Assembly (NCBI RefSeq): GCF_004210375.1
Contig: NC_134827.1
Location: 103,029,285-103,093,284 of the forward strand
Reading direction: 5' to 3'
DNA: 64,000 nucleotides
Origin: Tachypleus tridentatus
Lineage: Eukaryota > Arthropoda > Merostomata > Xiphosura > Limulidae
A program made the translations under genes and the position numbers. Under the pieces are notes generated by a model. It ran no database searches. It saw only the letters and a list, made by a program, of their open reading frames with translations, and was not told the origin of the DNA. How positions within the stretch are numbered: position 1 is the stretch's first letter; each line of letters opens with the position of its first letter. Shown piece by piece: positions 9,001-61,000 of the stretch.

Positions 9001-12000
9001 ATGTATTCCTATTTCAACATTAACAGAGCATAATGAAACCAAACCCATAATTCAAATTATTCTGATTTCAACATTGACAGAGCATAATGAAACCAAACCC
9101 ATAATTCAACGTATTCCTATTTCAACATTAACAGAGCATAATGAAACCAAACCCATAATTCAACGTATTCCTATTTCAACATTAACAGAGCATAATGAAA
9201 CCAAACCAATAATTCAATGTATTCCTATATCAACATTAACAGAGCATAATGAAACCAAACCCATAATTCAATTTATTCCTATTTCAACATTAACAGAGCA
9301 TAATGAAACCAAACCCATAATTCAATGTATTCCTATTTCAACATTAACAGAGCATAATGAAACCAAACCCATAATTCAATGTATTCCTATTTCAACATTA
9401 ACAGAGCATAATGAAACCAAACCCATAATTCAAATTATTCCGATTTCAACATTAACAGAGCACAATGAAACCAAACCCATAATTCAATGTATTCCTATTT
9501 CAACATTAACAGTGCATAATGAAACCAAACCCATAATTCAATGTATTCCTATTTCAACATTAACAGAGCATAATGAAACCAAACCCATAATTCAAATTAT
9601 TCCGATTTCAACATTAACAGAGCATAATGAAACCAAACCCATAATTCAAATTATTCTGATTTCAACATTAACAGAGCAATATGAAACCAAACCCATAATT
9701 CAAATTATTCCGATTTCAACATTAACAGAGCATAATGAAACCAAACCCATAATTCAAATTATTTCGATTTCAACATTAACAGAGCATAATGAAACCAAAC
9801 CCATAATTCAAATTATTCTGATTTCAACATTGACAGAGCATAATGAAACCAAACCCATAATTCAATGTATTCCTATTTCAACATTAACAGAGCATAATGA
9901 AACCAAACCCATAATTCAATGTATTCCTATTTCAACATTAACAGAGCATAATGAAACCAAACCCATAATTCAAATTATTCTGATTTCAACATTAACAGAG
10001 CATAATGAAACCAAACCCATAATTCAAATTATTCTATTTCAACATTAACAGAGCAAAATGAAACCAAACCAATAATTCAATGTATTCCTATTTCAACATT
10101 AACAGAGCATAATGAAACCAAACCCATAATTCAAATTATTCCGATTTCAACATTAACAGGCATAATGAAACCAAACCCATAATTCAAATTATTCCATTTC
10201 AACATTAACAGGCATAATGAAACCAAACCCATAATTCAAATTATTCCGATTTCAACATTAACAGAGCATAATGAAACCAAACCCATAATTCAATGTATTC
10301 CTATTTCAGCATTAACAGAGCATAATGAAACCAAACCCATAATTCAAATTATTCTGATTTCAACATTGAAAGAGCATAATGAAACCAAACCCATAATTCA
10401 ATGTATTCCTATTTCAACATTGACAGAGCATAATGAAACCAAACCCATAATTCAAATTATTCCGATTTCAACATTGACAGAGCATAATGAAACCAAACCA
10501 ATAATTCAATGTATTCCTATTTCAACATTAACAGAGCATAATGAAACCAAACCCATAATTCAAATTATTCCGATTTCAACATTAACAGAGCATAATGAAA
10601 CCAAACCCATAATTCAATGTATTCCTATATCAACATCAACAGAGCATAATGAAACCAAACCCATAATTCAAATTATTCCGATTTCAACATTAACAGAGCG
10701 TAATGAAACCAAACCCATAATTCAAATTATTCCGATTTCAACATTAACAGAGCATAATGAAAACAAACCCATAATTCAACGTATTCCTATTTCAACATTA
10801 ACAGAGCATAATGAAACCAAACCCATAATTCAAATTATTCCGATTTCAACATTAACAGAGCATAATGAAAACAAACCCATAATTCAATGTATTCTATTTC
10901 AACATTAACAGAGCATAATGAAACCAAACCAATAATTCAATGTATTCCTATATCAACATTAACAGAGCATAATGAAACCAAACCCATAATTCAAATTATT
11001 CCGATTTCAACATTAACAGGCATAATGAAACCAAACCCATAATTCAAATTATTCTGATTTCAACATTGACAGAGCATAATGAAACCAAACCCATAATTCA
11101 ATGTATTCCTATTTCAGCATTAACAGGCATAGTGAAACCAAACACATAATTCAAATTATTCCGATTTCAACATTAACAGAGCATAATGAAACCAAACCCA
11201 TAATTCAAATTATTCTGATTTGAACATTGACAGAGCATAATGAAACCAAACCAATAATTCAATGTATTCCTATATCAACATTAACAGAGCATAATGAAAC
11301 CAAACCCATAATTCAAATTAATCCGATTTCAACATTAACAGAGCATAATGAAACCAAACCCATAATTCAAATTATTCTGATTTCAACATTGACAGAGCAT
11401 AATGAAACCAAACCCATGAATTCAATGTATTCAATGTATCGATTTCAACATTGACAGAGCATAATGAAACCAAACCCATAATTCAATGTATTCCTATTTC
11501 AGCATTAACAGAGCATAATGAAACCAAACACATAATTCAATGTATTCCTATTTCAACATTAACAGAGCATAATGAAACCAAACCCATAATTCAAATTATT
11601 CTGATTTCAACATTGACAGAGCATAATGAAACCAAACCCATAATTCAACGTATTCCTATTTCAACATTAACAGGGCATAAGTGAAACCAAACCCATAATT
11701 CAATGTATTCCTATTTCAACATTGACAGAGCATAATGAAACCAAACCCATAATTCAAATTATTCCTATTTCAACATTAACAGGCATAATGAAACCAAACC
11801 ACATAACTCAAATTATTCTGGTTTCAACATTGACAGGAGCGTAATAGAACCAAACCCATAATTCAAATTATTCCGATTTCAGCATTGACAGAGCATAATA
11901 AGAGCCAAACCCATAATTCAATGTATTCCTATTTCAGCATTAACAGGCATAATGAAGACCAAACACATAATTCAATGTATTCCTATTTCAACATTAACAG

Positions 12001-12420
12001 GACATAAGTGAAACCAAACCATAATTCAAATTATTCTGATTTCAACATTGAAGGGCATAATGAGAACCAAACCCATAATTCAATGTGTTCCTATTTCAAC
12101 ATTGACGAAAGTATAATGAAAGGCAAACCCATAATTCAAATTATTCCGATTTCAACATTGACAGAGCATAATGAAACCAAACCAATAATTCAATGTATTC
12201 CTATTTCCAGCATTAACAGGAGGCATAATGAAGAGCCAAACCCATAATTCAGATTATTCCGATTCCAGCATTAGCACAGGGCATAATGAGACCAAACCCA
12301 TAATTCAATGTATGTTCCTATATCAGCATCAACAGGCATAATGAGAACCAAACCCATAATTCAAATTGTTCCGGTTTCAACATTAACAGGCCAGTAATGA
12401 GGAGCCAAGGCATGATTCAA
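1..12420. repeat. 54-bp satellite array, about 230 copies
   Basis: Near-identical 54-bp monomers run head to tail from the first base to the assembly gap and continue beyond the left edge. Each monomer starts ATTTCAACATTAACAGAGC and ends TTCAATGTATTCCT or TTCAAATTATTCCG. Variant positions recur (TGTATT/AATTATT, CCG/CTG, CCC/CAC). One of the six frames has no stop in the consensus and reads as an 18-residue repeat containing TEHNETKPIIQ; from base 1 it stays open to 4008. The frame then shifts at 1-2 base indels (about 3991, 4570, 4855, 6027, 8040, 8722, 10033). No start context, intron or unique flank supports a gene, and 54 being a multiple of three explains the open frame. From about 10150 to the gap the monomers become ragged with many small indels. 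Confidence 0.97.
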
Positions 12421-12920
12421 NNNNNNNNNNNNNNNNNNNNNNNNNNNNNNNNNNNNNNNNNNNNNNNNNNNNNNNNNNNNNNNNNNNNNNNNNNNNNNNN
12501 NNNNNNNNNNNNNNNNNNNNNNNNNNNNNNNNNNNNNNNNNNNNNNNNNNNNNNNNNNNNNNNNNNNNNNNNNNNNNNNNNNNNNNNNNNNNNNNNNNNN
12601 NNNNNNNNNNNNNNNNNNNNNNNNNNNNNNNNNNNNNNNNNNNNNNNNNNNNNNNNNNNNNNNNNNNNNNNNNNNNNNNNNNNNNNNNNNNNNNNNNNNN
12701 NNNNNNNNNNNNNNNNNNNNNNNNNNNNNNNNNNNNNNNNNNNNNNNNNNNNNNNNNNNNNNNNNNNNNNNNNNNNNNNNNNNNNNNNNNNNNNNNNNNN
12801 NNNNNNNNNNNNNNNNNNNNNNNNNNNNNNNNNNNNNNNNNNNNNNNNNNNNNNNNNNNNNNNNNNNNNNNNNNNNNNNNNNNNNNNNNNNNNNNNNNNN
12901 NNNNNNNNNNNNNNNNNNNN
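12421..12920. other. Assembly gap (500 N)
   Basis: Exactly 500 N, a typical arbitrary scaffold gap size, so the true distance is unknown. Satellite lies on the left. On the right, sequence resumes inside an EVI5 exon, so coding sequence is lost in the gap. Confidence 0.99.
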
Positions 12921-33933: not shown

Positions 33934-34044
33934 TCACAGAAGTGTCGGCTGGAGTCGCTGAGTGATCTCCTGGAGTAGTGCTGCCTGTCCAGCAGGAACT
34001 TTAATAAAAACATCATCTGTGACAATTCTCCAGCTCAAGCTTGA
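33934..34044 (-). CDS. TRPM2 last exon, end of NUDT9-H
   Basis: 36 codons plus [23 protein letters not shown] and onward to LQPTLL. It matches the SIRWQVVD-type final strand and helix of NUDT9-H. Confidence 0.92.
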   Translation of the reverse strand, partial: SSLSWRIVTDDVFIKVPAGQAALLQEITQRLQPTLL

Positions 34045-37000
34045 CTGTAAGAACAAAGAAACTTTACAGAGAAGCTCCACAAGTTATCAAACAGACAAGA
34101 ATATACGACCTACATAAACAGGGGTATATTGTTAAGAACAGGCCATCGACATGTTAAATCAAGCTATACACTTAAGGAAATGTATATATATACAACTGCA
34201 TGACCAACACACTGGCACCAGTGTGAAAACTGTAACGTACCGTTATTCTACACTGATGTGAAATAACAGAAATGTTAATAAGAATGGGGAATTATGATAA
34301 TCACCTGCAACTTATCAGCAACATTTTCATCTGTATTATAATGAACGTGCCACAGTTCCACTTCTCGCCAGGCGTGGTCAGTATTCCAGGGGTCATCCAT
34401 GTACCCTTTCATAACAATCTCACACTTCACACCCTGCTGGTTACTTGGATCGGATGAAACACTACAGTTCTGTAGGAACTACAAATAAAAGAAACATCTT
34501 GGTGATGAGATATGTTTATATAAAGTTTGCAAGTGTTAAAAACATACCTTATCTATTATCTTAAGCAACATTTTCATTTGATGGAAGTAGTTTATTATAA
34601 TGGAAATAGGAAATACTAAACAGGTAATTAGATGAAGTCAGAGTTTGGTACAGTGGAGAGAACAAAGCTGCAGGTCAATATATATAAATGTTTTAGTTTC
34701 ATTGTGTTTCCGTCTGATACTGAGTGAAACAAAAACTCATTAATACAAATTAAGAATGTAACTCAAGCCATTAATCTGTATCACCTCTGAAATGTTAATG
34801 TACACGACAGTTCTACGAAATTGGAATGATGCATAGAAATGTGTAAATATACTATTACAAATTTCTCTGTTTGACTTGCATTTTATTAATGTATTCTTTC
34901 AGGGCTATAAAATTAGGCCTTAACTCTTTTTCATAACTTGCCTAATTTTGTAATGAATGTTAATTATTATTATTTGAAAATTCTCACGGAACAATCTGTT
35001 CTCACCAGATGTCACTGCATATGTATTCTTAACTATGTACCAAACACTGGACAAAAACATTTCTATACGTGTAGTTTCTTTGATAGATTGTCTACAAGTC
35101 AACGTGTGATACATTTATCCAGTACATTTTGCATAAATAACATAATAATATAATAAAACATAAAACTTTTCTGTTTTATTAATATATGAAGTATGGGCTT
35201 TAAACAAAGTTCATTTCCAAAAAAAGAAAAACCCCGATCTGAAATGGGTAATCAATCAACATCTGAACACTCACTAGGGTTAAATAGAAACGGAATGATA
35301 ACAACACATTTTCAAATACAGAAAACAATCGTATCTACACAAGTGTGGTTTTAACACCACTACATACATAGGTAAAGTAAGTGCTTATTAACCCAGTCCC
35401 TTACCCAACTCAAACAAACAAAAAAGCATGTTGTTGTTTAATTAAACTAAAATACGTGGATGAAGGTAGACTAAAACAACCTTAAATATGTTTACAAATA
35501 TCTCTAGATTGGTATTCAAGATCAATCCAAATATTGCTATTTTCCGTACATCTTGCTTATACATAAAAAATTTAAACTTCTGCGAGTTAAAAGGACTACT
35601 TGTCTAAATGCAATGCTAGAATAAAAATCTGTACCCAGAAACCTTACAAAACAGTAGTGGAAGTACCTTTATGTGACGAATATTAGCACACAGTTATGGT
35701 TATAATCGCAGAACAATAACTGTTCATGGACACTGTATGTGGTAGTTAGAATAAGCAGTTAAGTTTGTAGAAAAATTTGTTCTTTCTTAAAAATTAAATA
35801 CAATTAGAGGTGACAACTCACCTGCTCCAAATCCTCTTTGGTTTTCCATTTATTTGTTCCAGTTTCTTGAACTTTGAAGAGAGCACGAGTAACTTCATAC
35901 TTCTGGTCACCTGGTACAAAACCCTGGGGAACATGGTGAAGATTATTGTTTGCCCACACACTTGTGATCGATACAACCAGAAGATAGAACTATTCTAGCT
36001 GTACACAAACTAATGATGTAAAAAGAATGTCTTAACTTCTGACAGAAACATTATACTTGGCAACTTGCTTTTAAGGCTTTACTAATCGTTAGACTTTTAA
36101 CTTTAAACCAAGACACTCACTCCTGGTAAAGTAATCTGGTCTCTCTTCTCAGTTGTCCTGAGAACAACAAATTCCAATCCTTTACCACCAGGAGTTACAA
36201 CTGTGCTCTTCTGCCACCTACAAGAGTAAACAGAGAATCTCAGTTACAATGTCCCATGAGGTTATATGTACCACAACAGTTACAATACCGATAAAGATTC
36301 ATCTCTTACATTTCTTTCACATCCTATTTCTTCACAACGTCACCTTATTATGACTGTCTGAATTGGTAGAAATTAACTTACGTGAAGAGAAACAAAATTC
36401 CATGTTTGAAACTCTTATGGGGAAACCATGATTAAACATGAGTATATATAACTGATTATAGAAAAACACCTAACATACCTGGTCATGATAAGAATGATGT
36501 AATGATTTGGACCCCAACGTGGTAAAGCACCCTTTCCTCTTAATCCAGTTCGACCACGTGGATTCCTTGAAGGAAAATAGCAGCTTAAAAACTTTTAAGA
36601 AACTCGGTTACTTCCAAGTATATATCTAGTAATAAATAATTGAGCACTGTTAACAAATAAAAGATAACAGTATGTACTTCTTAGAAAATTAAAATAATTT
36701 ATAACACTGAACCTAAGAAACCAAATATTTAAATGCTTTTTTGGGGAAAATCTGTTAAATGCATGATTAATAAAATAATTTTTTTTTGTTTTCCATTGTT
36801 AATAGTATGCTAAACATACAGCTAAAGTGAATTAACTACCAATGCACGTGGAAAAGTATAAATATACTCCTACTGTAAGGTCTTCCCCTCCAACTAGTGT
36901 TGCATGTATGAAAGTATGTATCAGTTGCATGCTCCAACTAATGTTACATGTAAGTATACAAGCGTAATTAGCTGTACAAATGCAGTCAGTAGTCTACCAT

Positions 37001-40000
37001 CCAATACTGAAGTGAAATTTTTGTGTGGTCAGAGTGCTGTTTACAATCTATGGTAGCAGTTGTAAAGATGAGTACCTAGGCCCTTTCTGAATACCACTGT
37101 AGTGTTTCTGTGGTATACATGTTTATGGACCATAGCTATTCAGAACAATTCCTCCAGCAGGAAGCTTTCATTTAATATACTGAGGTTTCTACTGTTGCTC
37201 TGCTTTTTAAACACTCAGCAAATTCAAGTGGTCATGCACAAATGACAACTTCCAGGGTCCTGTTTAAGTGGTCAAAAGGCATAGAAGATCACAGGAAACC
37301 TCAACATATGGTGTAGTTTGAATTTCTGTTTGTACTTCCTCTTGCAAAACTGTCACAACATGTACGGTCAGATCCATACCTCACTCACAGCCACTGTGTA
37401 CAATGAAGTACAGTTTTACCGTGTATGGATGTTCTCTCTACAGTCTTACCGTGGATGAATGTTCTCTCTACAGTCTTACCGTGGATGAATGTTCTCTCTA
37501 CAGTCTTACCGTGGATGAATGTTCTCTCTACGGTCTTACTGTGGATGAATGTTCTCTCTACAGTCTTACTGTGGATGGATGTTTTCTCTACAGTCTTACC
37601 GTGGATGGATGTTTTCTCTACAGTCTTACCGTGGATGAATGTTCTCTCTACGGTCTTACCATGTACGGATGTTTTCTCTACGGTCTTACCGTGGAGGGAT
37701 GTTCTCTCTACGGTCTTACCGTGTACGGATGTTTTCTCTACAGTCTTACCGTGTACGGATGTTTTCTCTACAGTCTTACCGTGTATGGATGTTTTCTCTA
37801 CAGTCTTACCGTGGATGAATGTTCTCTCTACAGTCTTACTGTGGATGGATGTTTTCTCTACAGTCTTACTGTGGATGGATGTTCTCTCTACAGTCTTACC
37901 GTGGATGAATGTTCTCTCTACAGTCTTACCATGGAGGGATGTTCTCTCTACGGTCTTACCGTATACGGATGTTTTCTCTACAGTCTTACCGTGTACGGAT
38001 GTTTTCTCTACAGTCTTACCGTGGATGAATGTTCTCTCTACAGTCTTACTGTGGATGGATGTTTTCTCTACAGTCTTACTGTGGATGGATGTTCTCTCTA
38101 CAGTCTTACCGTGGATGAATGTTCTCTCTACAGTCTTACCGTGGATGGATGTTCTCTCTACAGTCTTACCGTGGATGAATGTTCTCTCTACAGTCTTACC
38201 GTGGATGGATGTTCTCTCTACAGTCTTACCGTGGATGGATGTTCTCTCTACAGTCTTACCGTGGATGGATGTTCTCTCTACAGTCTTACCGTGGATGAAT
38301 GTTCTCTCTACAGTCTTACCGTGGATGCATGTTCTCTCTACAGACTTACCGTGGATGGATGTTTTCTCTACAGTCTTACCGTGGATGAATGTTCTCTCTA
38401 CAGTCTTACCGTGGATGGATGTTCTCTCTACAGTCTTAACGTGGATGGATGTTCTCTCTACAGTCTTACCGTGGATGGGTGTTCTCTTTACAGTCTTACT
38501 TTGGATGGATGTTTTCTCTACAGTCTTACCGTGGATGGGTGTTCTCTTTACAGTCTTACTTTGGATGGATGTTTTCTCTACAGTCTTACCGTGGATGGAT
38601 GTTCTCTCTACAGTCTTACCGTGGATGGATGTTCTCTTTACAGTCTTACCGTGGATGGATGTTTTCTCTACAGTCTTACCGTGGATGGATGTTCTCTCTA
38701 CAGTCTTACCGTGGATGGATGTTCTCTCTACAGTCTTACCCTGGATGGATGTTCTCTCTACAGTCTTACCGTGGATGGATGTTCTCTCTACAGTCGTACC
38801 GTGGATGGATGTTCTCTCTACAGTCTTACCGTGGATGGATGTTCTCTCTACAGTCTTACCGTGGATGGATGTTCTCTCTACAGTCTTACCGTGGGTGGAT
38901 GTTCTCTCTACAGTCTTACCGTGGATGGATGTTCTCTCTACAGTCTTACCGTGGAACATCTTCTCGGTCCAACTTGTATACAAGGGGCATGCCATCTTTT
39001 TCAATTATCCACGATTGTCGATCAATAGTGATACCTGCAGGATTTGTACACACAGAGTTCCACTGGAACGTTGGTAACACAGATCCTTGTTTTTCTCGTA
39101 AACTGCAAATAAAAATCACTTAAACACATAAATTAAACAAAACAAAAACTAGTAAAACTTGTAAGGAAATTAATAGTTAGAACTTGTTTTTCTTTCCAGA
39201 GCCGAAGAAGCCACCCGGATGAAGTAGGTGTAATTCAGATATATTCTTCCTTTAGTATGAAGCTTTAAGTGTGGCAGTTTAAATAATAAACATATGAATG
39301 ATACGAAAGGGTAAAAACTCAACTCAAATATCACATCACCACCACCATGAAGGTGCAAACCCGAACCCAAACCAAAATATCTATCACCACCACCACAACG
39401 AGGGTGCAAACCCAAACCAAAATATCTATCATCACCACTACCACGAGGGTGCAAACCCAAACCAAAACATCTATCACCACCACCACCACGAGGGTGCAAA
39501 CCCAAACCAAAACATCTATCACCACCACCACAACGAGGGTGCAAACCCAAACCAAAACATCTATCACCACCACCACGAGGGTGCAAACCCAAACCAAAAC
39601 ATCTATCACCACCACCACCACCACGAGGGTGTAAACCCAAACCAAAACATCTATCACCACCACCACCACGAGGGTGCAAACCCAAACCAAAATATCTGTC
39701 ACCACCACCAGGGTGGAAATTCAACATGGATATCAACCAACTCCACCAAAGAGGAATGTAAAACAAAGTTTAGATTTTTTTTTCTCTTTGTGATTAAAAT
39801 CTAAAGTAAGGTAGAAAACCTTTTGGTTGTTTATACCAACACCTGAGAATAAAATCCCAACGCAGGTAACACTGATGTAAAGTATATACATTAAGTCTCA
39901 GAAAAAACTTTAAACAGACAGGAACAACTGTTGCAATAATAAATAAATAAACAAAGACAATGCTCATGCCAAATGATGAACTCCATAATCCAATTTTTGT

Positions 40001-43000
40001 TTTCATGAGAAGATGATATTTAAATACTAAGACAAAACAGACTTAAAAAAATAAAAAATAGTGAATGCTAAGATTTCAAACATGCCAAAAGTAACTATGA
40101 AACTAAATGTTTCTCATAATTGTACAATAAATTAATTTTCTGATTTTCTTTTTCCCACTAGAACAACTTCCCGTTACCATAGATTTACTTGATGTAACAT
40201 TTCCCCAAATTTGATGCATTCTTTTATTCTAAAGCTATTTTTAAAGTTTAGAAACTGAAAAAAAATTGGTTTTTTGCTACCAAAAGTTGAAGTTTCATGC
40301 TCAGTTCTCATAATGAAATCTTTCAAATGTTAAACAGGTTAATAACTCGATCTATTATTCTGTTCAAAGTACATTACTCCAACACTTATTGTTAAATACA
40401 AGTTCCTAGACTTACAGTAACAAATCTTCATCCACGTGAGGCTGCAGGGCCACAGGAAAGTCCGACCGAGGTCGACTGTAAGCAACTGGGTCATAGTCTA
40501 TCCACATTACTTCCCATGCCACATACTTGTCAGGGACAGGAAATCGCTGGACTCTGGTCCCGGGTAAGGGGTTTGACGTGCAAGAAAGTGTACAGACCCC
40601 TGACTATATTCTGAGTATTGGGTAAATAAAACATGCTTTAAAAAGGTAACAGGACACTAGTTCTCTGACCATGCATTGAATCAAGCTGCCTAAGTTAATG
40701 AAACTTAGCCACGCATATTAAAAGCAATATCAAGATAGTTTGTTTAGCAGTAAGATCATAATTTAATGCGTTCCCTTTAACCTAAAGATTTCACAAACTC
40801 CAGCTGGAGGAAAGTACCTAATCTATAGTTCAGTCAAAATAAGCAAGACATATTTTGAACATATTAATATTGCATGCTAAAGTGGCTTCTAGTTGTAGAA
40901 ATCAGAGAAAGGGAATATATCCACATTGACCAAGAGTATTTGCAGATTTTGGCTGCAATTATGTAAACTAGAGAGTTTAAACTTTGGGACAGCCATCAAA
41001 TGTTGTTTTCCTTCCATACAAATGCTTACCTTTCTTAGGGCATGAAGAGGGACCTGTACAAATAACCATCCATAATTGTGTAGAAGAACAAAACAATGTT
41101 TTTTGAACTTTGTTAGATCTAGTCATTTTGTGGATTTGTAGAATTCTTTAAATTAGCCACAAACAAAAAAAAACTTTTTAAAATGTGATGGTGGAACAAT
41201 ATAACTTAAACTATCATAAACAAAAACATTAAGATTACAAGTTACTACTCATTTAAACTCTTGAAAACATGGCAGAACATGGAATATAACACTATGTTTT
41301 AAAAGTGGATTCAACTATGTAGCAAAATGTTTACTTTTTCTTGTTCCTGGACAGAAAGTGTTATTTCCCAATTGTTTGTGTCTAAAGTGAATGGAAAAGA
41401 CCTATTTTTCTCTTCAAACTTTGCTTTTGTGACCTTGGAGTGTATAACGAAAACACGATGGGAGACTATATTTGGGGTCTGATATGTGAAAGTGATTTAC
41501 ATTACAGTCGCAAATCTCGAAAAACTACTCACTTCTAAACATTTGTGTGTAACTTTAGTATAAATACACGTAAATCTTGATTCATATGCTGTTTTATTCA
41601 GACCTTACGTAAATGAAAATGTGCAAATTTGTTCGTTATTACATAGAAAATAGGTTAATTTCTAAATTTCATTATCCAGGTCACAAAAGCAAAGTTTGAA
41701 GGGAATAATGGTCATTTTCTGTACTTTTACAACGTAAGCAGTTAAGAAATAACACATACTATCCAGGAACACAACTTGTGTTACATAGTGTTACTGAATG
41801 CTAACTCTCATATAATGTGCCAATTTCATTGGAAATCTTCAACATATGCGTAAAATAATGAAAACAGAAGTGTGTGCACGTGCGTGTAACAGAACTGCAA
41901 GATTATCAAGGTTCTAAGTGGTACATTAATCAATTAACCAACAAAAATATAATATTTAAGTTCAAATAAGAGTGAACAAATACACCTATTAACACAAATA
42001 CTTCCTAAAAGCCAAGATAAATACAGAACAAGCCATGAATACATTCATCGACAACAGGGTTTTACCTAAACCTAACAAAGTCAAAATAAGGCATTTTACA
42101 GTTAAAAAACACCTTACTCCCGCAATGTATGGAATAACAAACCCTCATCTCTTTGATTCATGTGTTTTATGCTTTCCAAGTAAACTTGTGAATAGGTCAA
42201 CATTCTCTCCAACTCTCCCACTCGACCTTTCACCTGACGTAAAACACTCTTTTCATATTCCACGTCTTCCGCTATTGTCGTTAACCTGAAAAAAGTTTAA
42301 ATTCTGACTTCACTTATTACATGATTTTAAAATTCTCGAACCTGTAAGTATGAATATAAAAATACTGATTATACAGTGTTTGTCTTCTGTACTTATAAAA
42401 TAACCTGTTATTACTGTGGTTGTGACCACATTGTAAAAAAATTAAAACTATAAATGAAAATCCACACTAATAATAAATAAGGAGAAATATGCAAAGTTTT
42501 GAATTTTTCCTCAAAGTTACTAATTATACTATTTATGGAAAAAATATCTTTAAAGTATCTTTCGTTATTTTAAAAAGTCTAATTTGAGTTCAGTTAGCGT
42601 GTGTTTGTGTGTGTTTTTCATATAGCAAAGCCACAAAGGGCTATCTGCTCAGCCCACCGAGGGGAATCAAACCCTTGATTTTAGCGTTGTAAATCCAGAG
42701 ACATACCGCTGTACTAGCGGGGGGCATTTATCAGATGTTTCTAGTAGTCAAACATTTTTGATCAGTCAAAGTCCCCTATATCGTTCTGCTGTTAATATTC
42801 TTAGTTAAGAAAACTCTAAGGTTTAATTTATTTCTTCATATACTAGAAATTCTTAAGTGAATATGTATGAAAATAAAATGCATTGAAATATGTTAGATAT
42901 ACACAACTCTAAGTTAATATGCACATGTTATGATTTAGGTGGTTCAATATGAAATATGTTAAATTTAGTTATTATTAAAGGTTAGAGTTTATTGCAGGTT

Positions 43001-46000: not shown

Positions 46001-49000
46001 TAGATTACGGTTAAAACTTCAAAATTATATTTTTCAATGAGCTTTTAATAACTAAACACTGAACACACATTTTTAAGTATGTATAAGCACATACATTCTT
46101 ATGACAGATCATTGTTGAATTTTCATAAAGCTATTTGAGGCCTAATATTTCAAAACCATTGATGACAGGGAAAACAGCTAGTCAACACCACCCACCAACA
46201 AATCTTGGGACAATCATGTCATATTCAATAGTGGGAGTTGACTGTCACTCTTATAAACAAACACACCCACTGCCCTAAAGTGCAGGGATGGGCCATTCAA
46301 GGAGCTGCATAAAGTACAATTCATATTTCACAGTAATAAACCAAGGAACCACAGATATCCAGGCTGGCACACTACTAACTAAGACATACCAAGCTATTCT
46401 TATGACAGAAAAGAATACAACAACAACATTTTAATAAGAGTCCAAATAACGAAAAACTGCTTTTGGGTTGCCCCAAACTTCATCGTCTTTCTGAGAAGAC
46501 TTGATCAATAACACCATCTATAATATTTACTAAATCTAAGCATTTATGAAATAAATCATACAGAAGTTTGTTCTTAATATTTACTTAAAAGTAAGCATTT
46601 CTACAAAACTGTTTTGTTTGTTTTTGAATTTCACCCAAGGCCATCTGTGCTAGCCATCCCTAATTTAGCAATGTAAGACTAAAGGGAAGGCAGCAAGTCA
46701 TCACCACTCACTGCCAACTCTTGGGCTACTCTTTTACCAATGAATAGTGGGATTGACTGTCAGATTAAAACACCCCCATGGCTAAAAGGGCGAACATGTT
46801 TTGTGTGACAGGGGTTCAAGCCCGCAACCCTCAGGTAATGAGTCAAGTGCTTTAACCACCTGGCCAGGCCATTTCTGCAGAAACAGTTTTTAATGAGGCC
46901 AACACATGCTCAGACTATAAGAGAGTGATAAATAAAAGGATAACAGTTGACTATTACAAAAAATTTGTGAAGTCTGTTACAAAGGTATAAATCAGCCATG
47001 CAGTAGCAGTGGTAGTCAAACATTATAAGTAAAAGCAGTGATTCAAGAATGGATATTGTTTTGTTAAAATCACAAAGTTCATGGCATACTTTTCTAGCTT
47101 TTCCCCATCTTAATTAAAATTTCGACACACCTTCCAAATCAGCAATTGGAGTTAAAAATAAAGAGAACCAGGCACGGTGGAAAGTACGTCGGAAAAGTTC
47201 TGCATTAATTGGGTAGTCCGGGTAAATGACAGCATGTATGACAATTCCACCACTTATAATCACAAGCAGAGTCATTCTCATGAAGTTTAAAAAGTCTACA
47301 ACGACCTGCAAACAAAGACATGCATCAACAGATTACCAGCATATTTAGGTTACTAGCTAGTTTTTAAGTGAGTACAGAAAAAGAACTAAAATCTAATAAA
47401 GAGAACAAAAAAATATTTTTTTTTTAACTTGTAAAAACTCGTCAGCTCATAGGGACGTCATCTCCTTGTAAAGTTGTATTTAAAAAAGTAAAATATGGAT
47501 AGGAACAATTGCAAATTAGATTCATTCAGTAATTTTGTAATACTAAAATTAACAACACAAAATAACATTAAAACGTTGAGAAATTGATAACATGCCACCT
47601 GGCAAAGTATAAACATTCAAGTGTCTTTACAACTGTCCATATCACAGAAATTTACTGAACGATTTTAAAATATTACCACTCATGACCAACAATTTCATGA
47701 CTAAATAATTTTGAAATGTTGTACAGACGTTGATCATAGTTTTAAGATGAAAGTTGAAGCCATATTCCTAAATATTTTGCTGGCTATCAAGTTAGTGTAA
47801 CTTAAGAGTCATTTCAGGAAGAGACATATTTCTGTTTGATCCAATAAAGTATATATATAAAACAAAATCAATTAATTGAAATCAACATAAAAGTTAATAA
47901 CCCAAAATTCTTAATTATATTAATTTGCACATTTAATACAATTCTATGTTCATAAGTGGTTAGTTTAATGTTAGCAGCACTGCTTCCATAACTCCATAAA
48001 CATATACATCACTACAGAACGTACCATGAGCTTAACTCTGTATAAAAGTGGGCCTAAGGTTGGTGATATTGGCAGATAAATGGCTATCAATCGATAGTAG
48101 AAATACAGGAGAGCCACACAAAGAAGGACTTTAGTAGAATAAGTATCTAGCAACATTCCAACATAAAATATACGGCCCACACTATAGAGACATATGAAGG
48201 TTACCATCAGGAGGATTTCAACGCACTTGAAGAACAATGGTATACTGCTAAACTTCTGTAAAAATAATATAAAAAAAATTAATTAATCAATATTTTAGGA
48301 AACTTGTGTTTTAACACAAACTAAAATAAGCATTTTCCACTAACAACAGTAGTGAGGTACTTCTCTAAATTAGTTCTCCATAAATTACTGATGTACGGAT
48401 GCCCCGCTCGTACAAAATGTAACATTATTCAAAGAAAGCTATTAAAAGAAAGCTAATACATAAACATTATTCAAAATAATCATTAGTGGAACATAAAAAA
48501 CAAATTATTGCTACTAATAGTGTATCATAGGTAACTCTTTTAAAAGTAACTTGACATTAAAAACATTGTAAATTTGAATACAGAATTGTTTATAACTCTT
48601 TCTTGCTTCTCGTAATTTATGTACTTTACCTACATCACACTCAGTATAAACTTACTAAATAGTAAATAGTTTGTTTTTAAAATTATATCATTTGATTAGT
48701 TATTTCCATGCTTTCTTAGGTTACAAAAATTTATCATGACCCTCTTTTGAAAAGAAAACTTCCTTTTATTCTATAACCCGACTTTTGATCATAGTTACAT
48801 TTTGTACAAAAGCCAGATAATTCATGTCAAAACCAACTTTATTTAAATTTTTTTAACTACTTCACCAACTGCAGTAGTCACCACTTCCAGCTTTTATTGA
48901 TAAAAACAAAAACAGAAAGGTTTATCAATGATACTGAACCTTACCTTCAGAATGATAACTCCTCTACGCAAGTCAAACTAGGCATGATTTGTTTTCTTAA

Positions 49001-52000: not shown

Positions 52001-55000
52001 TTTTCAAATTGTTAGAGTCTTGAATACCCATAGCATGAATTTTTCTTATTGATGTTTGCTTGTGGTACCAATCAATAGGTGGCGCCACAATATTTGGTCG
52101 CATTATATGTACATGCTACCTCCATTACAGTAAGATTACATAAATTCTCTGGACTTACCTCAACATGACAATAGCAGACTATTGGCTGAAATGAAGGATA
52201 CTATGTGGTAGTTAGTGTTCAATATAATAATATTTTTTTATCACAAAAACAATTAGTAGCTTTGTTTTGATTTTGAATTTCGCACAAAGCTACTCAAGTG
52301 CTATCTCGCTAGCCGTGTAAGACTAGAGGGAAGGCAGCTAGTCATCACCACCAACCACCAACTCTTGGGCTACTCTTTTCCCAATGAATAGTGGGATTGA
52401 CCATCACATTATACCACCCAATGGCTGAAAGGGCAAGCATGTTTTGTGTGAGGGGGATTCAAACCAGCAACCCTCGGATTAGAGTTGAGTCTCTTAACAA
52501 CCTGGTTAGGCCAGGCCTCAATTTGTAGATAATTAGTAACTATAACAACTGAACAGCTCAAGGTATCTATGAAAACGAATAATATTAAAAAAAATACATT
52601 TTAGTTATTGAACAAGAACAGGTTGTAATACTCACCCGATGGAGCATGTAAGTTCTTCTAATGGTTTCCAAAACAATAAGTGCTGTCCAAATACAAACAG
52701 CAGAATCTAGATAAAAATTCCCACAAGAGGGCCACAGTACAGCCAAGCTGAACAATCCAAGATAGAACATGTAGAAAATCTAAAATATTATAACAAAACA
52801 ATACACAACTTTATCTTCAGAAGAAATATCTATAGAACATCAATCTAGTTTGAAGATTCCCATTTTAGAACCAAATATATACACGTCTTTTTATCGCTAT
52901 ATTTATTTTTTGAACAGTGTTGATTTCTAATATAGTTAAACTATCTATTAATATTACATGTTTTAGTATTCTATTCAATCTAAAAAGTGGATCAAATGCA
53001 TAATCTATAGATTACAAAAGTACGGAAATATATAAAACTCCATAAGAAACAGGATTGTACATTAAAACTTTTAAACCTACAGAATCTTACTACAAACTGT
53101 AAAAATAAATAAAATGTTATGAAGGAGAGATTTAATTTGTTTTTACATTAAAGTAATGAAGCAGCCAATCAGAAAGAACTGCCAAATAAACATACATTTT
53201 AGACATACGTAACAAAATAAGATTATCTTACGTAGAATCACAAAACGCTCAAACAAATTAATGTAACAATTTTCTTTTAACTAGAAACCTGAAATGTCCA
53301 GAACTTTGTAATTGGAGCACTCCACATCAAATAAACCATCTTCCACAGAGGAGGCGAGGAATGACCAATAAGTCCAGAAGTATCTTTCTTAGAACCCTTT
53401 CTTTTAACCTTTGTGTGTCCTGTACAACTGCTATTACTATTAAAGAAAAACTTTTAAAGTACAGGTTCAGGAACTTCTTATAAAATTAAATAGTTGGTGA
53501 CAGACCAATAAGATTACACTTAACGTAACTGCTTATAAAATTAAACAGTTGGTGAGAGACCAATAAGATTACACTTAACGTAACGACTTATAAACTTAAA
53601 TAGTTGGTGACCAATAAGATTACACTTAACATAATAAATTAACGTTTTATATCCAATCAAAATTGTATTCCTTGATCCGTTTTTTCATTTTAATTTAATT
53701 TTTAAAAACATATATCTTATTGAAACCATGCAAAATTATATACAAAAAATGGACATAAATTCCTTTTTGATTCACTTAGTTATAATTAATTAGTTGAGGT
53801 AATTAACTCTTTTTGTCAATCACCAACCACAGGTTATCCTACATGAAAGATTTTGTACTTAATATAAATCTGTTAAGATAGATGTTAATTTTGAATTACT
53901 CACTCCATAGCTGTTAAAGGTAAATCTTGATCATTTTGTTTAAGAGGGACAACTTCATCACCTTCTCTTTCATCATCAGAGTCCAGATCTTGAATGTATT
54001 ACCAAAATATATCAGATAAAGTCTCGACTGAGAATTGCTAAGTTGTAAATAAATCTATTGGACATTCTAGAATCCTAGTACACATACTTAACATAAAACA
54101 ACATTATTTAAGCATCTTAAAAATTAATGTTCTAAAAGAGACATTATACTCGATGACGATTGATGATGAAAATATCAAAGAACTAGAACAGTCTAGTATC
54201 TTCATCACCTTAACTTGTTGACTGCCAAGTATTTCAGTTGCTACAATACAACTCCAATGCCTCTTCATTTTGTAACTTTTTTCGTGGCGCCATTTTGGAT
54301 CGAAAGTGAAACAATTTATAAATAGGTCAAATGCATGTATGGTGCTGACATCTAGCGATGAAGTTAGGTATTATTGAGAACGAATTAAATCGTCTGTGGC
54401 ACTGTGTTATCGATCGGCTTGGACGAGTTACCTCGTCTACGGCACTGAACAGGTTAAAGAAACCTTTTAGTTTTATTTTATAAAGTTTCAGAAAATGGAA
54501 GTGAGGTTACTTTATTTCTTAAGAAATAAATTAATGCAAGTTTCTGAATTAATGTGGAGTACATTTGATTTCTATTTTTTTTGTGTGTGCAAAGCTACAC
54601 GAGGGCTATCAACACCAGCGATCCCCGAGCTTTTTTTTTTAACCAACAAATATTGGGATAGGGCATTACATTAGAATGCTTCCAAGGAAGGAAAGGTGAC
54701 CATGTTTGGTCTCAGACTTGTGATTCAAGAGCTCCAACCACCTGGCCATGCCAAGTTGTCAATGTGGAGTAATCATGATGGATTTCATGTAGTTTAACTG
54801 GTTTAGATTGAAAATATATTGTACTCAGGCCTTTTTTGGTCTTTGTTGTTTTTATTACATCTTTATATATATATATTCTTTGGTCTAAATAATATTTCTA
54901 ACTGAAAAATTATAGACTTTCAAACTATACTGTAATAACAGGTATAGTCATATTTGTTAACACAGTATGTTAACCTAAAGAAGACCTAAGAAGGTTGAAA

Positions 55001-58000
55001 TGTTCTTATATACTTTACTTTAGTTAGTTTTAATACCCATACCAGCCGTCTTGAGGAAAAGTACGAAAGATTAGGCTTGGGTTGACTTCATTACAGTGTG
55101 TGTAATACTTTTTAATTTCACATTATATTTGGACTACCATTTCTCTGTTGCATAGACAAAAAAACAAATTATTTTAGTCCACTTGTCACCTCCTTGTATC
55201 TAAACATATGCAAAATACGACATCTCAAAACATTTGCAAAATACGACATCTCTCATGAGTATGGAGCATCAAACTACCCACTCCCTTCCCTGTACAATGG
55301 TTTAATTCATGACACCAGAGGTCTTATTTTATGTTCCAACACTGATGTGTCCCCCCATAAAAGTCTGGCACTTATACAAAACAGACCAAAAAGCGTACCT
55401 CAAAATAAGTGTACAGACATACGTCAAGTTTCTACACAATTTTCAACCAATCTGCTTTTTGACAGAACCACTTATTCCCTCTCACTAAGAACAGCCAAAA
55501 ACTGGTAATGACTTTCTCCTCTTCAGAAGCTCATAAACATTTTATATTGTGACCTCAACTAAGAAGAAAATTGCTTCCAGTAAGATTTCAACATATTTAA
55601 GTTTTTCTACCTGATACATCCTTAAAAGCATTCCAAGAGTCTCTTGGGTCCAATTTGAATCTCACCCACATGTACATTGGGAAAATCAGAAAAGCACATA
55701 AAATCACCTGTGAAAACAAACGCTTCATTAATAAAAATATTTTGTAAATTTAATGACATTTTGAGCTACTTCACGTGAACATACAGTTTATTTTACTTAT
55801 TCTGACAAATATCTCACACTTGATAACATGCAAGTTTCTCTGATGCATTTAACATTGAAGGACTCAAAAGGATCCAAGTTCCTTAATTAATTCTTTTACT
55901 TTTCCACTCCAGATGGTCACTTTTAAGCTAAACAAAGTCTTGTAGAGGGAACTCTACATCCAATTTATAGATTACAAACTTTGATTATGTGCTAATCTAG
56001 ATTTTTGCATCTAAAAAAACAGCTGATGATTAGCTGCATTTTGTACCAGTTAAATTCAGTAACAGTTCTCACATATAACAACTGTACAAGAGTCAGGAAC
56101 AATAACTACTTAAAGGTCATTAAGTAATCTACTTAGAAAACTAAAATAACATACGAGTTGTTTTTAACACTTTCATTTAACGTACTGAAGGTATCTCAAA
56201 TATTTTTAACATTTAATGTACTGATGGTATATCAAATATTTTTAACACTTAACGTACTGAAGGTATCTCAAATATTTTTAACATTTAATGTACTGATGGT
56301 ATATCAAATATTTTTAACATTTAATGTGCTGAAGATATATCAAATATTTTTAACATTTAATGTACTGAAGATATATCAAATATTTTTAACATTTAACGTA
56401 CTGAAGATATATCAAATATTTTTAACATTTAACGTACTGAAGATATGTCAAATATTTTTAACATTTAATGTACTGATGGTATATCAAATATTTTTAACAC
56501 TTAACGTACTGAAGGTATCTCAAATATTTTTAACATTTAATGTACTGATGGTATATCAAATATTTTTAACATTTAATGTACTGAAGATATATCAAATATT
56601 TTTAACATTTAATGTACTGATGGTATATCAAATATTTTTAACATTTAATGTACTGAAGATATATCAAATATTTTTAACATTTAACGCACTGAAGATATAT
56701 CAAATATTTTTAACATTTAACGTACTGAAGGTATATCAAATATTTTTAACATTTAATGTACTGAAGGTATCTTAAGTATTTTTAACATTTAATGTACTGA
56801 AGGTATATCAAATATTTTTAACATTTAAAGTACTGAAGGTATATCAAATATTTTTAACATTTAATGTTCTGAAGGTATATCAAATATTTTTAACATTTAA
56901 CGTACTGAAGATATATCAAATATTTTTAACATTTAACATTACTGAAGATATATCAAATATTTTTAACATTTAACGTACTGAAGATATATCAAATATTTTT
57001 AACATTTAACGTACTGAAGATATATCAAATATTTTTAACATTTAACGTACTGAAGATATATCAAATATTTTTAACATTTAATGTACTGAAGGTATCTTAA
57101 GTATTTTTAACATTTAATGTACTGAAGGTATATCAAATATTTTTAACATTTAAAGTACTGAAGGTATATCAAATATTTTTAACATTTAATGTTCTGAAGG
57201 TATATCAAATATTTTTAACATTTAACGTACTGAAGATATATCAAATATTTTTAACATTTAACGTACTGAAGATATATCAAATATTTTTAACATTTAACGT
57301 ACTGAAGATATATCAAATATTTTTAACATTTAACGTACTGAAGATATATCAAATATTTTTAACATTTAACGTACTGAAGATATATCAAATATTTTTAACA
57401 TTTAACGTACTGAAGATATGTCAAATATTTTTAACATTTAATGTACTGATGGTATATCAAATATTTTTAACACTTAACGTACTGAAGGTATCTCAAATAT
57501 TTTTAACATTTAATGTACTGATGGTATATCAAATATTTTTAACATTTAATGTACTGAAGATATATAAAATATTTTTAACATTTAATGTACCGAAGGTATA
57601 TCAAATATTTTTAACATTTAACGTACTGAAGATATATCAAATATTTTTAACATTTAACGTACTGAAGGTATATCAAATATTTTTAACATTTAATGTACTG
57701 AAGGTATCTTAAGTATTTTTAACATTTAATGTACTGAAGGTATATCAAATATTTTTAACATTTAAAGTACTGAAGGTATATCAAATATTTTTAACATTTA
57801 ATGTTCTGAAGGTATATCAAATATTTTTAACATTTAACGTACTGAAGATATATCAAATATTTTTAACATTTAACGTACTGAAGATATATCAAATATTTTT
57901 AACATTTAACGTACTGAAGATATATCAAATATTTTTAACATTTAACGTAATGAAGGTATCTCAAATATTTTTACAGTGTCATTCTTCTCATAGTAATGAA

Positions 58001-61000
58001 ATAAAAATATCATTTAACTACAAATATTTGATATCACATACAAATTATTAAAGAATTATAAGTTTAATACCTTAAGCCAACTTGGAAAAGTCATGACTCC
58101 CCTTGTAAGCTCTCGGATACGGATGTTTCCAAAAAACAGGTTAGTCAGCCACTTCTGACAACATTGATGAGACAGAAATATTCTTATCCTGGCATCTGCA
58201 GCAAGTTCCACCGCAGTCTTGTATTCCCACTCAGGGCTTTCTTCGTTTAGGACATCATACGCTCGACAAGTTGCTTCTTTGTAGCTAGTGTCTAGAACTC
58301 CAGTAGCTTTTTCAGCAAAATTTCTATTCCCCCCCCCCAAAAAAAATAAAATATTAATTGCATTTGATAATCAGAATAAGAACAAAAATAAATCTATTTG
58401 TATTTTTTTTGAATTTTGCACAAAGATACACAAAGGCTATCTACACTAGCTATCTCTAATTTAGCAGTTTAAGACTAGAAAGAAGGCAGCTAGTCATCAT
58501 TACCTACTGCAAACGTTTGGGCTAATCTTTTACCAGCTAACAGTGGAAATGACTCACTTTATAACACCCCCACGGCTGAAAGGGCAAGCATGTTTGATGG
58601 GAGAGGGATTCAAACCTGAAACCCTCAAACTGCGAGTCATGGGCTCTAACCACCTGGCCATGCTGGACCCAAAATAAATCTAACCAATACAGTACTAGTA
58701 AACATGAATTATTTTGTGGGTTCAATTGGAAATTAATAGCAAGCTTTAAGTCCTAAATGTGAAAAAAATCCACTACCTCAATATGCAGGGCTACCAAATT
58801 TTGAGTTTAGGGAATGCAAATTTCCAAAGCTAATGAAGCTACACTCACACGTAGGTGCCCCAAAACTTCAGCTCCATACTGAATTTCTAAACTTCTACTT
58901 GTTATTATAGATTTTTTCATTAAAAACATTATGTATCTATTATCACTGAAATGTCTGAAAGATCAGTAGCTTTATTTACCAATGATGACAGGCTAATTCA
59001 TCAATGCAACTAAGACACCCACACACAGATTTATGAATTGCATTGTCCAACTATTTATTTTCATATCTATAGTACTTTATAATCTATATAATTTTCTATC
59101 TCTGGGATGAGAACAGTTATTTTTGTTCAATGGCAATTTATGTTGACACAAGATGCTTTGTTTGGTCAGAATGACTTTGACAAGTGGTCACCTGGTAATT
59201 CAAGGAGATTCACCTATGCATGAAGGAAAACTATGAGGTAATTTGAGTATCAGAAATTGTGTGTGGTTGACTCTATTTCATTGTAACCGAATACCCTGCT
59301 CAGAGATTTTACGTCATTGTGTATCATAAAACGAGTCATGTTATTCTCAATACTGCAGGAATAGCTGTCTATTGAAATCACACTTATTGGATCCATAACT
59401 TTCACATCTGAAATGAATATTATGTGGTAAATTGTATTATATTTAGTTTACTGTAGACAGATTATTATAATGAGCACATTTGTTTACATTTACAACTGGT
59501 AATATTTAAAAAAATTGTTAGTCCTAGTATATCATAAAAAAGTTGTACATGCCCGGTTAAAAAATTGTAATCCAACTTCATAAATCAAATAGTGAAAATA
59601 CAGTAATGAGTTAGAAACTTTATAAAAACTGTTTTTTTTTCTCAACCCACAATACTGAACTATTGAATCAGTTGATAAACATTAACGTTACCAAGACATT
59701 CCAGAATGTTCGAAATTTTTTTCCCTCCAATGGACATCTTACCCCGTTTCCTTATATTTTCCAATAATATAATTCAGAAAATACTCAGAACCATAAACAG
59801 ATCAAATATGAACACAATTTTAAGCAAACAAGTACAAATGGTTGAGTATATGTTATATTAAAATGATTTTAGCTACACAATTATTACGATCATGTGACAA
59901 TCACAGCTAAGAGAAAGTGAAAGTAGCAGTGTATCCACACTATATTTTGACCTTTTGATACTAAAAACTGTAAGAAAAAAGATATATAAAAGCTTTACAA
60001 TACATAATAATTATAGATTCAACTCATACAAGTGTGTCCAAATCAAGGATTTAGTATTTACAAAGTAGAAATATCTCTTGCACTTAATTGCACTGGAAAA
60101 CAAAAATATAGATCAACATGGGGCACCAGAATTCACATATAAAAATAATTATATATGTAACAAACAGCTGGTATGAGTAGAGAAAGCACCATGTAGAGGA
60201 GTGAACAACGTTTCAACCTTCTTCGGTCATCATCAGGTTCACAAAGGTTTACATATAAAAAGATTTGCAACACATTTTACCCCAGCCAAGTAAGTCAAGA
60301 GTGTGGCAGTTGTATCATGATAAGTGAAAATGAACAAATACGAATATGAAAGGTGTAAGCTGTCCACATGCCCCAGATAACAGTACATAACAATAAAAAA
60401 GGATCTCCACCTAGAAACAAAGTAAACAAGCTATAGACTTATCAAGATAGTTGTACACTAGGTATGGCCGAAAACCTATCTCATACCTTAAACAGCTGGA
60501 ATATGAAATGAGTATTCATGCTATTCCACAAGATGACACTTTGGTCAAGTCACCTGATGCAATGACTCTGAACTTCTGTGTAATAATCAGCAGTGACGTC
60601 AATGCTGAGAAAGAATTATCATAAACTAACCAAACATAGTGCCATACTTTAGATGTACACCCATGACTGCATGTAGCGACACAGACAATAGAGATACGGT
60701 GAGGTTCTAAATTCATTTCAGTTCATACTCAAACCTTATTCGTGTGTGTGTACTGCTATGTAGTCAATCATTCTGGGACAAACCTGAGACCAACCTTCTG
60801 CACTCTTGGTTTAAATTAGTTCACAATCAGTATTTAGTTTCGTACTTACTTTTGTTGTCTTCTCATCTCTATTCTCAGTCCAGACTCACTGACGTAGTTT
60901 CCAAGCCTCTCAAACATCAACGAAACAACCAGACCAAGGTGAATTGGCTGATCTGAATGTCTCCACAAGATGTCAGCCAGTTTTGATTTATTCGTACAAA

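Follow-up and report, generated by a model that had tools for sequence, protein, structure and literature searches.

A donor-containing 30-bp minisatellite at a 5' splice site of a TRPM2-like gene

Results

A TRPM2-like gene with a C-terminal NUDT9-H domain

The window (the whole 64,000-nt stretch of DNA that was analysed) carries on its minus strand a TRPM2-like gene, whose NUDT9-H domain lies in exons e to k (40603-33934; Table 1). Joined together, these exons encode 303 residues in a single open frame, and the six intervening introns have their AG and GT; the exons match Nematostella TRPM2 (6co7, 1.6e-26) and human NUDT9 (1q33, 7e-26). The segment after S6, upstream of exons e to k, matches TRPM channels (best for the query 2.1e-07), and the S5 segment matches them weakly (10.5 bits). 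With exons e to k and the post-S6 and S5 segments as the model, the gene has a TRPM core and a C-terminal NUDT9-H domain, the combination expected of TRPM2. No Pfam family was found for the pieces of exons e to k or of the TRPM core that were searched. Upstream of exon e, the gene model (exons b to d) is uncertain, its frames joining badly.

The acceptor of intron f-g at 36565, named in an earlier note on this DNA, was confirmed. Because the homology runs across the f-g junction, the donor at 38949 should be the one that makes this protein, which supports the first donor of the array described below as the coding donor.

The NUDT9-H domain scores 96.5 bits against Nematostella TRPM2, 66.5 bits against the human and 54.1 bits against the zebrafish protein. 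Given the higher score against Nematostella, the gene looks like one of an invertebrate lineage. In the Nudix box (exon i, 35822-35923), RALFKVQE stands where Nematostella has AEFGEE, and this sequence is common to both copies of the gene on contig C3 and to the paralogs on contig C10 (L046 and L052). Invertebrate TRPM2 Nudix boxes are stated to be canonical in one account (PMC6461439). From its sequence, the host seems to belong to an invertebrate lineage in which the catalytic Nudix box was lost.

Table 1. Features of the TRPM2-like gene and of its donor-containing array. Positions are those of the window unless a contig is given; a slash marks the exon-intron boundary.
Feature	Position	Strand	Remarks
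Exon e	40416..40603	-	NUDT9-H start; one-base length change relative to the second copy shifts the frame of its first part
Exon f	38950..39102	-	153 nt; NUDT9-H coding, ends ..EDVPR; PDB matches
Genuine 5' splice site of exon f	38944..38952	-	Array unit 1, ACG/GTAAGA; frame and NUDT9/TRPM2 homology across f-g
Donor-containing 30-bp minisatellite	37409..38955	-	51 complete units and a 16-nt partial; unit CCACG/GTAAGACTGTAGAGAGAACATCCAT; TRF, unit table
Unit 6 donor nonamer	38794..38802	-	ACG/GTACGA; weakened donor, in-unit stop lost
Unit 18 donor nonamer	38434..38442	-	ACG/TTAAGA; GT lost
Partial unit 52	37409..37424	-	GTAAA; distal array end; unit table
Intron f-g	36566..38949	-	2384 nt, about 65% array (7261 nt in second copy)
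Exon g	36479..36565	-	87 nt, 29 residues with its neighbours; skipping keeps frame
Exon h	36121..36217	-	NUDT9-H
Exon i	35822..35923	-	Nudix-box region, non-canonical (RALFKVQE)
Exon j	34305..34478	-	NUDT9-H
Exon k	33934..34044	-	Last coding exon, with stop
47-bp array	L009:4310-6214 = C3:102930309-102932213		40.5 copies; second copy, same intron

An array of 51 units starts at the genuine donor of exon f

TRF reported one array at this place in the window, with a period of 30, 51.6 copies, 93% matches and 0% indels. Counted from the donor along the minus strand, the array consists of 51 complete units in exact 30-bp steps, followed by 16 nt of unit 52. Both readings confirm the claim of the earlier note that 51 units run without an indel from a genuine TRPM2 donor. 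Exon f (39102-38950) ends in TTCCACG, its intron begins with GTAAGACTG at 38949, and unit 1 starts at this donor. The flanking exon has its genuine donor in the GT of the first unit, as in the human ABCA7 repeat, and the units include the exon-intron boundary, as in the amphioxus mirages. Each unit combines 6 exonic nt (TCCACG) with 24 intronic nt; the unit had rightly been described as the end of the exon plus the start of its intron, with an exonic part that was put at 5 nt.

Copies of the splice signal are found in most units. GT is present in 50 of the 51, GTAAG in 49 and the full CCACG/GTAAGA in 32. One of the two losses of GTAAG, in unit 18 (TTAAG, 38439), had been seen before, and the other, in unit 6 (GTACG, 38799), had been missed. 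The unit table supports the view that the units are copies of the real donor. On the sense strand, GTAAG occurs 32 times per kb within the array; its density falls to 0.67 per kb outside the array, and the remainder of intron f-g has none. The commonest donor nonamer is that of the real donor (37 of 51 units) and gives a predicted U1 duplex of -8.2 kcal/mol; the predicted values are -4.5 kcal/mol for the 8 units with A at position -1 and -9.0 kcal/mol for the single GTAAGT unit.

The 51 units fall into 20 types. Their mean number of differences from the consensus is 0.46 in units 1-13, 2.26 in units 30-48 and 0.67 in the last three (Spearman rho 0.44, p = 0.001, for divergence along the 51 units). 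We read this unevenness as ordinary uneven turnover of a minisatellite. No acceptor-like sites were found within the array by a simple pyrimidine-tract rule. Eight units folded as RNA are no more stable than shuffled sequences (z = -1.12), 28 of 200 shuffles folding at least as well. Among the first ten matches listed for the unit in the window, each one beyond the array was 9 nt long and had an E of 9.5. A 22-nt unit pattern had 0 matches each in the prokaryote and virus contig collections, as expected there, and searches of the window with Rfam at gathering scores and for tRNAs at bacterial settings both returned 0.

Several other repeats were observed in the window. A 45-bp array (39364-39710) lies 262 nt upstream of exon f, which is thus flanked by minisatellites on both sides. 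A 36-bp array (56174-57973) has 50 copies, with 18 in the mirrored region described below. At the start of the window, 12.4 kb of a 54-bp satellite (1-12389, 229 copies) ends shortly before a scaffold gap. A SINE-like repeat with a shared core occurs on the minus strand at 46677-46699, 52321-52343 and 58473-58495, with an exact match at 52321. The core may be of the horseshoe-crab type; our literature search found no SINE-like sequences of this type.

Spare donors would lead straight into a stop codon

Modelled retention of 1, 2 or 8 units gives VPR followed by an immediate in-frame stop (CGG TAA), as the earlier note had predicted. A stop upstream of exon junctions is expected to lead to nonsense-mediated decay (NMD), and five exon junctions lie downstream of this one, so that a truncated channel, the product envisaged in that note, is less likely than NMD. 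Skipping of exon g would delete 29 residues in frame. Among the 15 possible single changes at +1 to +5 of unit 1, 8 still leave a stop, and 7 would insert ten codons in frame if splicing moved to donor 2.

A second copy in the same assembly carries 17 units

An exact 20-nt piece of the unit has 34 copies in the genome (2.17 Gb, 205 contigs), 24 of them in this array and 10 (C3:102929307-102929747) in a second array. The second array (C3:102929302-102929814) has 17.1 units, the first of which lies at the same donor in a second exon f. It is not indel-free, since one inserted base shifts the register between units 14 and 15, and its variant map differs from that of the 51-unit array. It lies in an inverted near-duplicate of nearly the whole window (window 13432-64000 versus C3:102894392-102960258), whose main aligned blocks are 95.9-99.2% identical. 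The inverted copies are collinear from window position 13432 to the end of the 10 kb beyond the window. The aligned blocks around exons f to k are 96.6-96.8% identical, and exons f to k themselves differ at 3 of 724 nt. The mirrored duplication was followed over roughly 60 kb; further probes, placed at 103.2 and 103.4 Mb, landed in repetitive sequence. A 500-N scaffold gap is present at window 12421-12920 and was the only N run seen across the 216 kb covered. The assembly thus has two copies, about 96-99% identical, that differ in the length of the array (51 versus 17 units), in agreement with the earlier suggestion that it varies.

Exon e differs by one base in length between the two copies. 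The NUDT9 homology extends further upstream in the frame of the second copy (106 versus 96.5 bits to 6co7). In the window copy, the frame ahead of the array exon may therefore have changed, or a base may be in error.

Other minisatellites were also compared between the window and the second copy. The 29-bp array has 3.1 versus 19.1 copies, the 36-bp array 50 versus 18, the 45-bp array 7.7 versus 6 and the 43-bp array 10 versus 9; a 55-bp minisatellite has 3.0 copies in both. A 47-bp array of 40.5 copies in intron f-g of the second copy is absent from the window copy. Inverted pairs about 210-270 kb apart occur elsewhere in the genome: the C10 paralog pair is 98.5% identical over 3168 bp, an array pair on C1 is 98.0% identical over 294 bp, and a possible inverted pair on C13 has equal protein-search scores. 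Several inverted pairs at similar distances fit retained haplotypes better than independent palindromes. The second copy is probably the other haplotype, in which case the 51 and 17 units would be allelic.

Four paralogous copies have plain donors

The 21 matches of a protein search comprise the two C3 copies, the C10 pair and two C2 genes, together with weak matches on C13. Exon f of the C10 pair has 84.9% nucleotide identity to that of the window and likewise ends in TTCCACG. A plain donor (CCACG/GTAGGT) follows it, and the f-g intron is about 443 nt long. In both C2 genes (139.27 Mb and 50.12 Mb) the donor is a plain GTGAGT. Both GTAAGACTG and TAGAGAGAAC are absent from the fetched stretches of these four paralogous copies (the C10 pair and the two C2 genes), and TRF found no repeat in the two paralog stretches on which it was run, L038 and L051. 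With no array in the four copies and TTCCACG kept in the C10 pair, the end of the exon has the look of old coding sequence, and the array that of a younger growth from a seed across the boundary.

Variants show no sign of selection on the spare donors

Had the spare donors been selected for one of the roles raised in the earlier note, GTAAG might be expected to be conserved. Among 18 distinct variants, 2 fall in GTAAG versus 3.0 expected (p = 0.75), so that there is no excess conservation. The change from G to A at position -1, which weakens the predicted U1 duplex, is carried by 8 of the 51 units and is also found in the 17-unit copy. Comparison of the units thus lends no support to a selected role of the spare donors. 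Both GTAAG variants are singletons, in contrast to the other variants, which are mostly amplified (11 of 16; p = 0.14); this difference could hint at weak selection.

Donor motifs in other arrays

Three exact copies of AGGTAAGT at 10-40 bp spacing were found at 2182 places, versus 1015 for the reversed pattern, the places overlapping within arrays. Donor-like motifs inside minisatellites are frequent in the genome. A genome-wide class of donor-anchored arrays was not supported. The scoring of array starts covered contig C1, which gave 17 clusters among the matches listed. The 5' side of 15 was taken, and 12 were scored: at L068 and L070 the start of the array lay beyond the stretch taken, and L059 mirrors L058, so these three were dropped. 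Among these listed clusters, 5 of 12 start at most 10 nt upstream of the donor-equivalent position, versus 3.5 expected (P = 0.26). At L057, L060, L065 and L066 (C1: 3.24, 110.28, 143.03 and 143.10 Mb), AG/GTAAGT arrays begin 0-10 nt from the first donor motif, and by eye a short ATG-started open frame ends at that motif in L065 and L066. These four may be further donor-anchored arrays.

Discussion

The array, its anchoring at the donor of exon f and its two lengths are plain in the sequence. We consider it quite likely that the array is a young, length-variable minisatellite that is near neutral and tolerated, and not an evolved regulator. A seed of roughly 30 bp, with 6 nt from the end of exon f and 24 nt from the start of the intron, would have been duplicated in tandem. 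Growth and shrinkage by ordinary minisatellite turnover would then have produced 51 units here and 17 units in the mirrored copy. Each unit would contain a copy of the donor only because the seed lay on the donor, as the array-free paralogs examined and the TTCCACG kept in the C10 pair suggest. A random 30-bp seed covers one of the nine modelled donors about 3.8% of the time. At this rate, and given that the gene has several minisatellites, it is no great surprise to meet one such case.

During splicing, the exon-adjacent donor would be used mostly, exon f being defined from its acceptor and the upstream exon sequence, and probably only the nearest copies would fall within the range of exon definition. 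An mRNA made by occasional use of copy 2 or 3 would have TAA directly behind the exon and be removed by NMD. By analogy with ABCA7, longer arrays may raise the skipping of exon g and so delete the 29-residue block. What counts against a tolerated minisatellite is that, in competition experiments, duplicated donors are often used at the intron-proximal copy, so that the array would be expected to be misused heavily.

The immediate in-frame stop in the modelled spare-donor products and the in-frame skipping of the 87-nt exon g would also suit a selected splicing rheostat, in which array length or the level of splicing factors sets the ratio of full NUDT9-H channel to destroyed or g-less mRNA. 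Skipping of the next exon is reported to grow with VNTR length in ABCA7 (PMC5954066), and the array holds 84 YCAY motifs in 1530 nt (55 per kb; the same strand of the window has 15.9 per kb). However, such selection agrees poorly with the ordinary conservation of GTAAG, with the weakened -1 A donors found in both arrays, with the absence of the array from the four paralogous copies examined and with a threefold difference in length between near-identical copies, and we regard it as distinctly unlikely. A heritable effect of array length, in which longer arrays delay or misdirect the definition of intron f-g and cause graded loss through TAA or skipping of exon g, is unlikely. If true, it would yield channels without the 29-residue block and tune ADP-ribose sensing between alleles.

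Other roles suggested for such an array concern U1 and the donor itself. As a U1 landing strip, it would protect against premature polyadenylation or slow the splicing of intron f-g. The pairing predicted for most units fits this proposal, as does the count of AATAAA, which is 0 in intron f-g versus 18 on that strand in 49000-33800. However, what is left of intron f-g without the array is shorter than 1 kb and contains one ATTAAA but no AATAAA against which protection would be needed, the RNA fold of the array is unremarkable, and the paralogous copies examined do without it, which leaves this role very unlikely. U1 is abundant relative to the sites of one gene, and a U1 sponge, also raised in the earlier note, is implausible on general grounds. 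The same note raised a buffer against donor loss, in which unit 2 would take over if unit 1 mutates. This would work for the 7 of 15 changes that also remove the TAA and fail for the 8 that leave a stop; moreover, selection for a rare back-up is expected to be very weak and the paralogous copies examined have none, so that we find a buffer barely credible. Finally, the copy number or the array itself could be wrong, since the scaffold gap and the inverted near-duplicate flanks mean that haplotype separation and repeat length are not guaranteed. An assembly artefact is nevertheless highly improbable, as the array stands at the same donor in both assembly copies, its variant map is not the same in the two, and the gap is the sole N run in the stretch examined. 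A tolerated minisatellite remains our preferred explanation.

Part of the question posed by the earlier note is answered by known precedents, and the array is of the kind already represented by the amphioxus mirages and the ABCA7 VNTR. Amphioxus mirages are described as minisatellite-like duplications of exon-intron boundaries that copy splice signals and are unstable in length (PMC3087553). The cases given are Adh3, troponin C and the globins BflGb6 and BflGb9, and PGBD5 has similar boundary repeats. Adh3 data and globin RT-PCR are reported to suggest regular splicing (PMC3087553; related PMC3902484). As described, the mirages share with our array the tandem repeat across the boundary, the copied splice signals and the unstable length. 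In contrast, our array lies on the donor side with 6 exonic nt per unit, in another gene and probably another animal group, and it has 51 units where the amphioxus copy numbers stated are 6 and 3 (BflGb6, at the acceptor).

The intron-18 VNTR of ABCA7, a human Alzheimer's gene, has a 25-bp unit in about 12 to 427 copies and includes the donor of exon 18 (PMC5954066). According to that account, retention of one unit gives a premature termination codon, rises when NMD is blocked and is independent of length, and in-frame skipping of exon 19 rises with VNTR length (PMC5954066). Both repeats adjoin an exon, have a first GT that is the donor of that exon and are followed by an exon that can be skipped in frame. 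They differ in that one-unit retention shifts the frame with the 25-bp unit of ABCA7 and meets an immediate in-frame TAA with the 30-bp unit here; the effects were measured in ABCA7 and are predicted from the sequence in our case.

More distant parallels are found in human segmental duplications, whose minisatellites (average 30-bp units) are reported to alter exon-intron structure, some of them activating cryptic splice sites (PMC2812944). Those repeats are described as lengthening exons or introns of paralogs with 4 units on average, whereas here 51 units extend from a donor inside an existing intron. Decoy or pseudo-5' splice sites that trap U1, for example with HMGA1a and ER-alpha (PMC6002489), resemble the array in placing an extra U1-binding, donor-like site near the real donor; by its title, that study concerns a single regulated site, unlike the many tandem copies here.

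Taking ABCA7 and amphioxus together, the likeliest behaviour of the array is use of the first donor, leaky use of the nearest copies with loss to NMD, and possibly a length-dependent loss of exon g. The value of the array lies in being a natural test object for donor choice, and not in a new mechanism: the spliceosome would have to choose the first among about 50 near-identical donors. The nine bases of the junction are identical in most units, the pitch is fixed at 30 bp and the immediate stop marks mistakes, while the 17-unit version and the array-free paralogs in the same genome aid such a test. The array adds to the mirage and ABCA7 repeats a case in another gene and probably another animal lineage.
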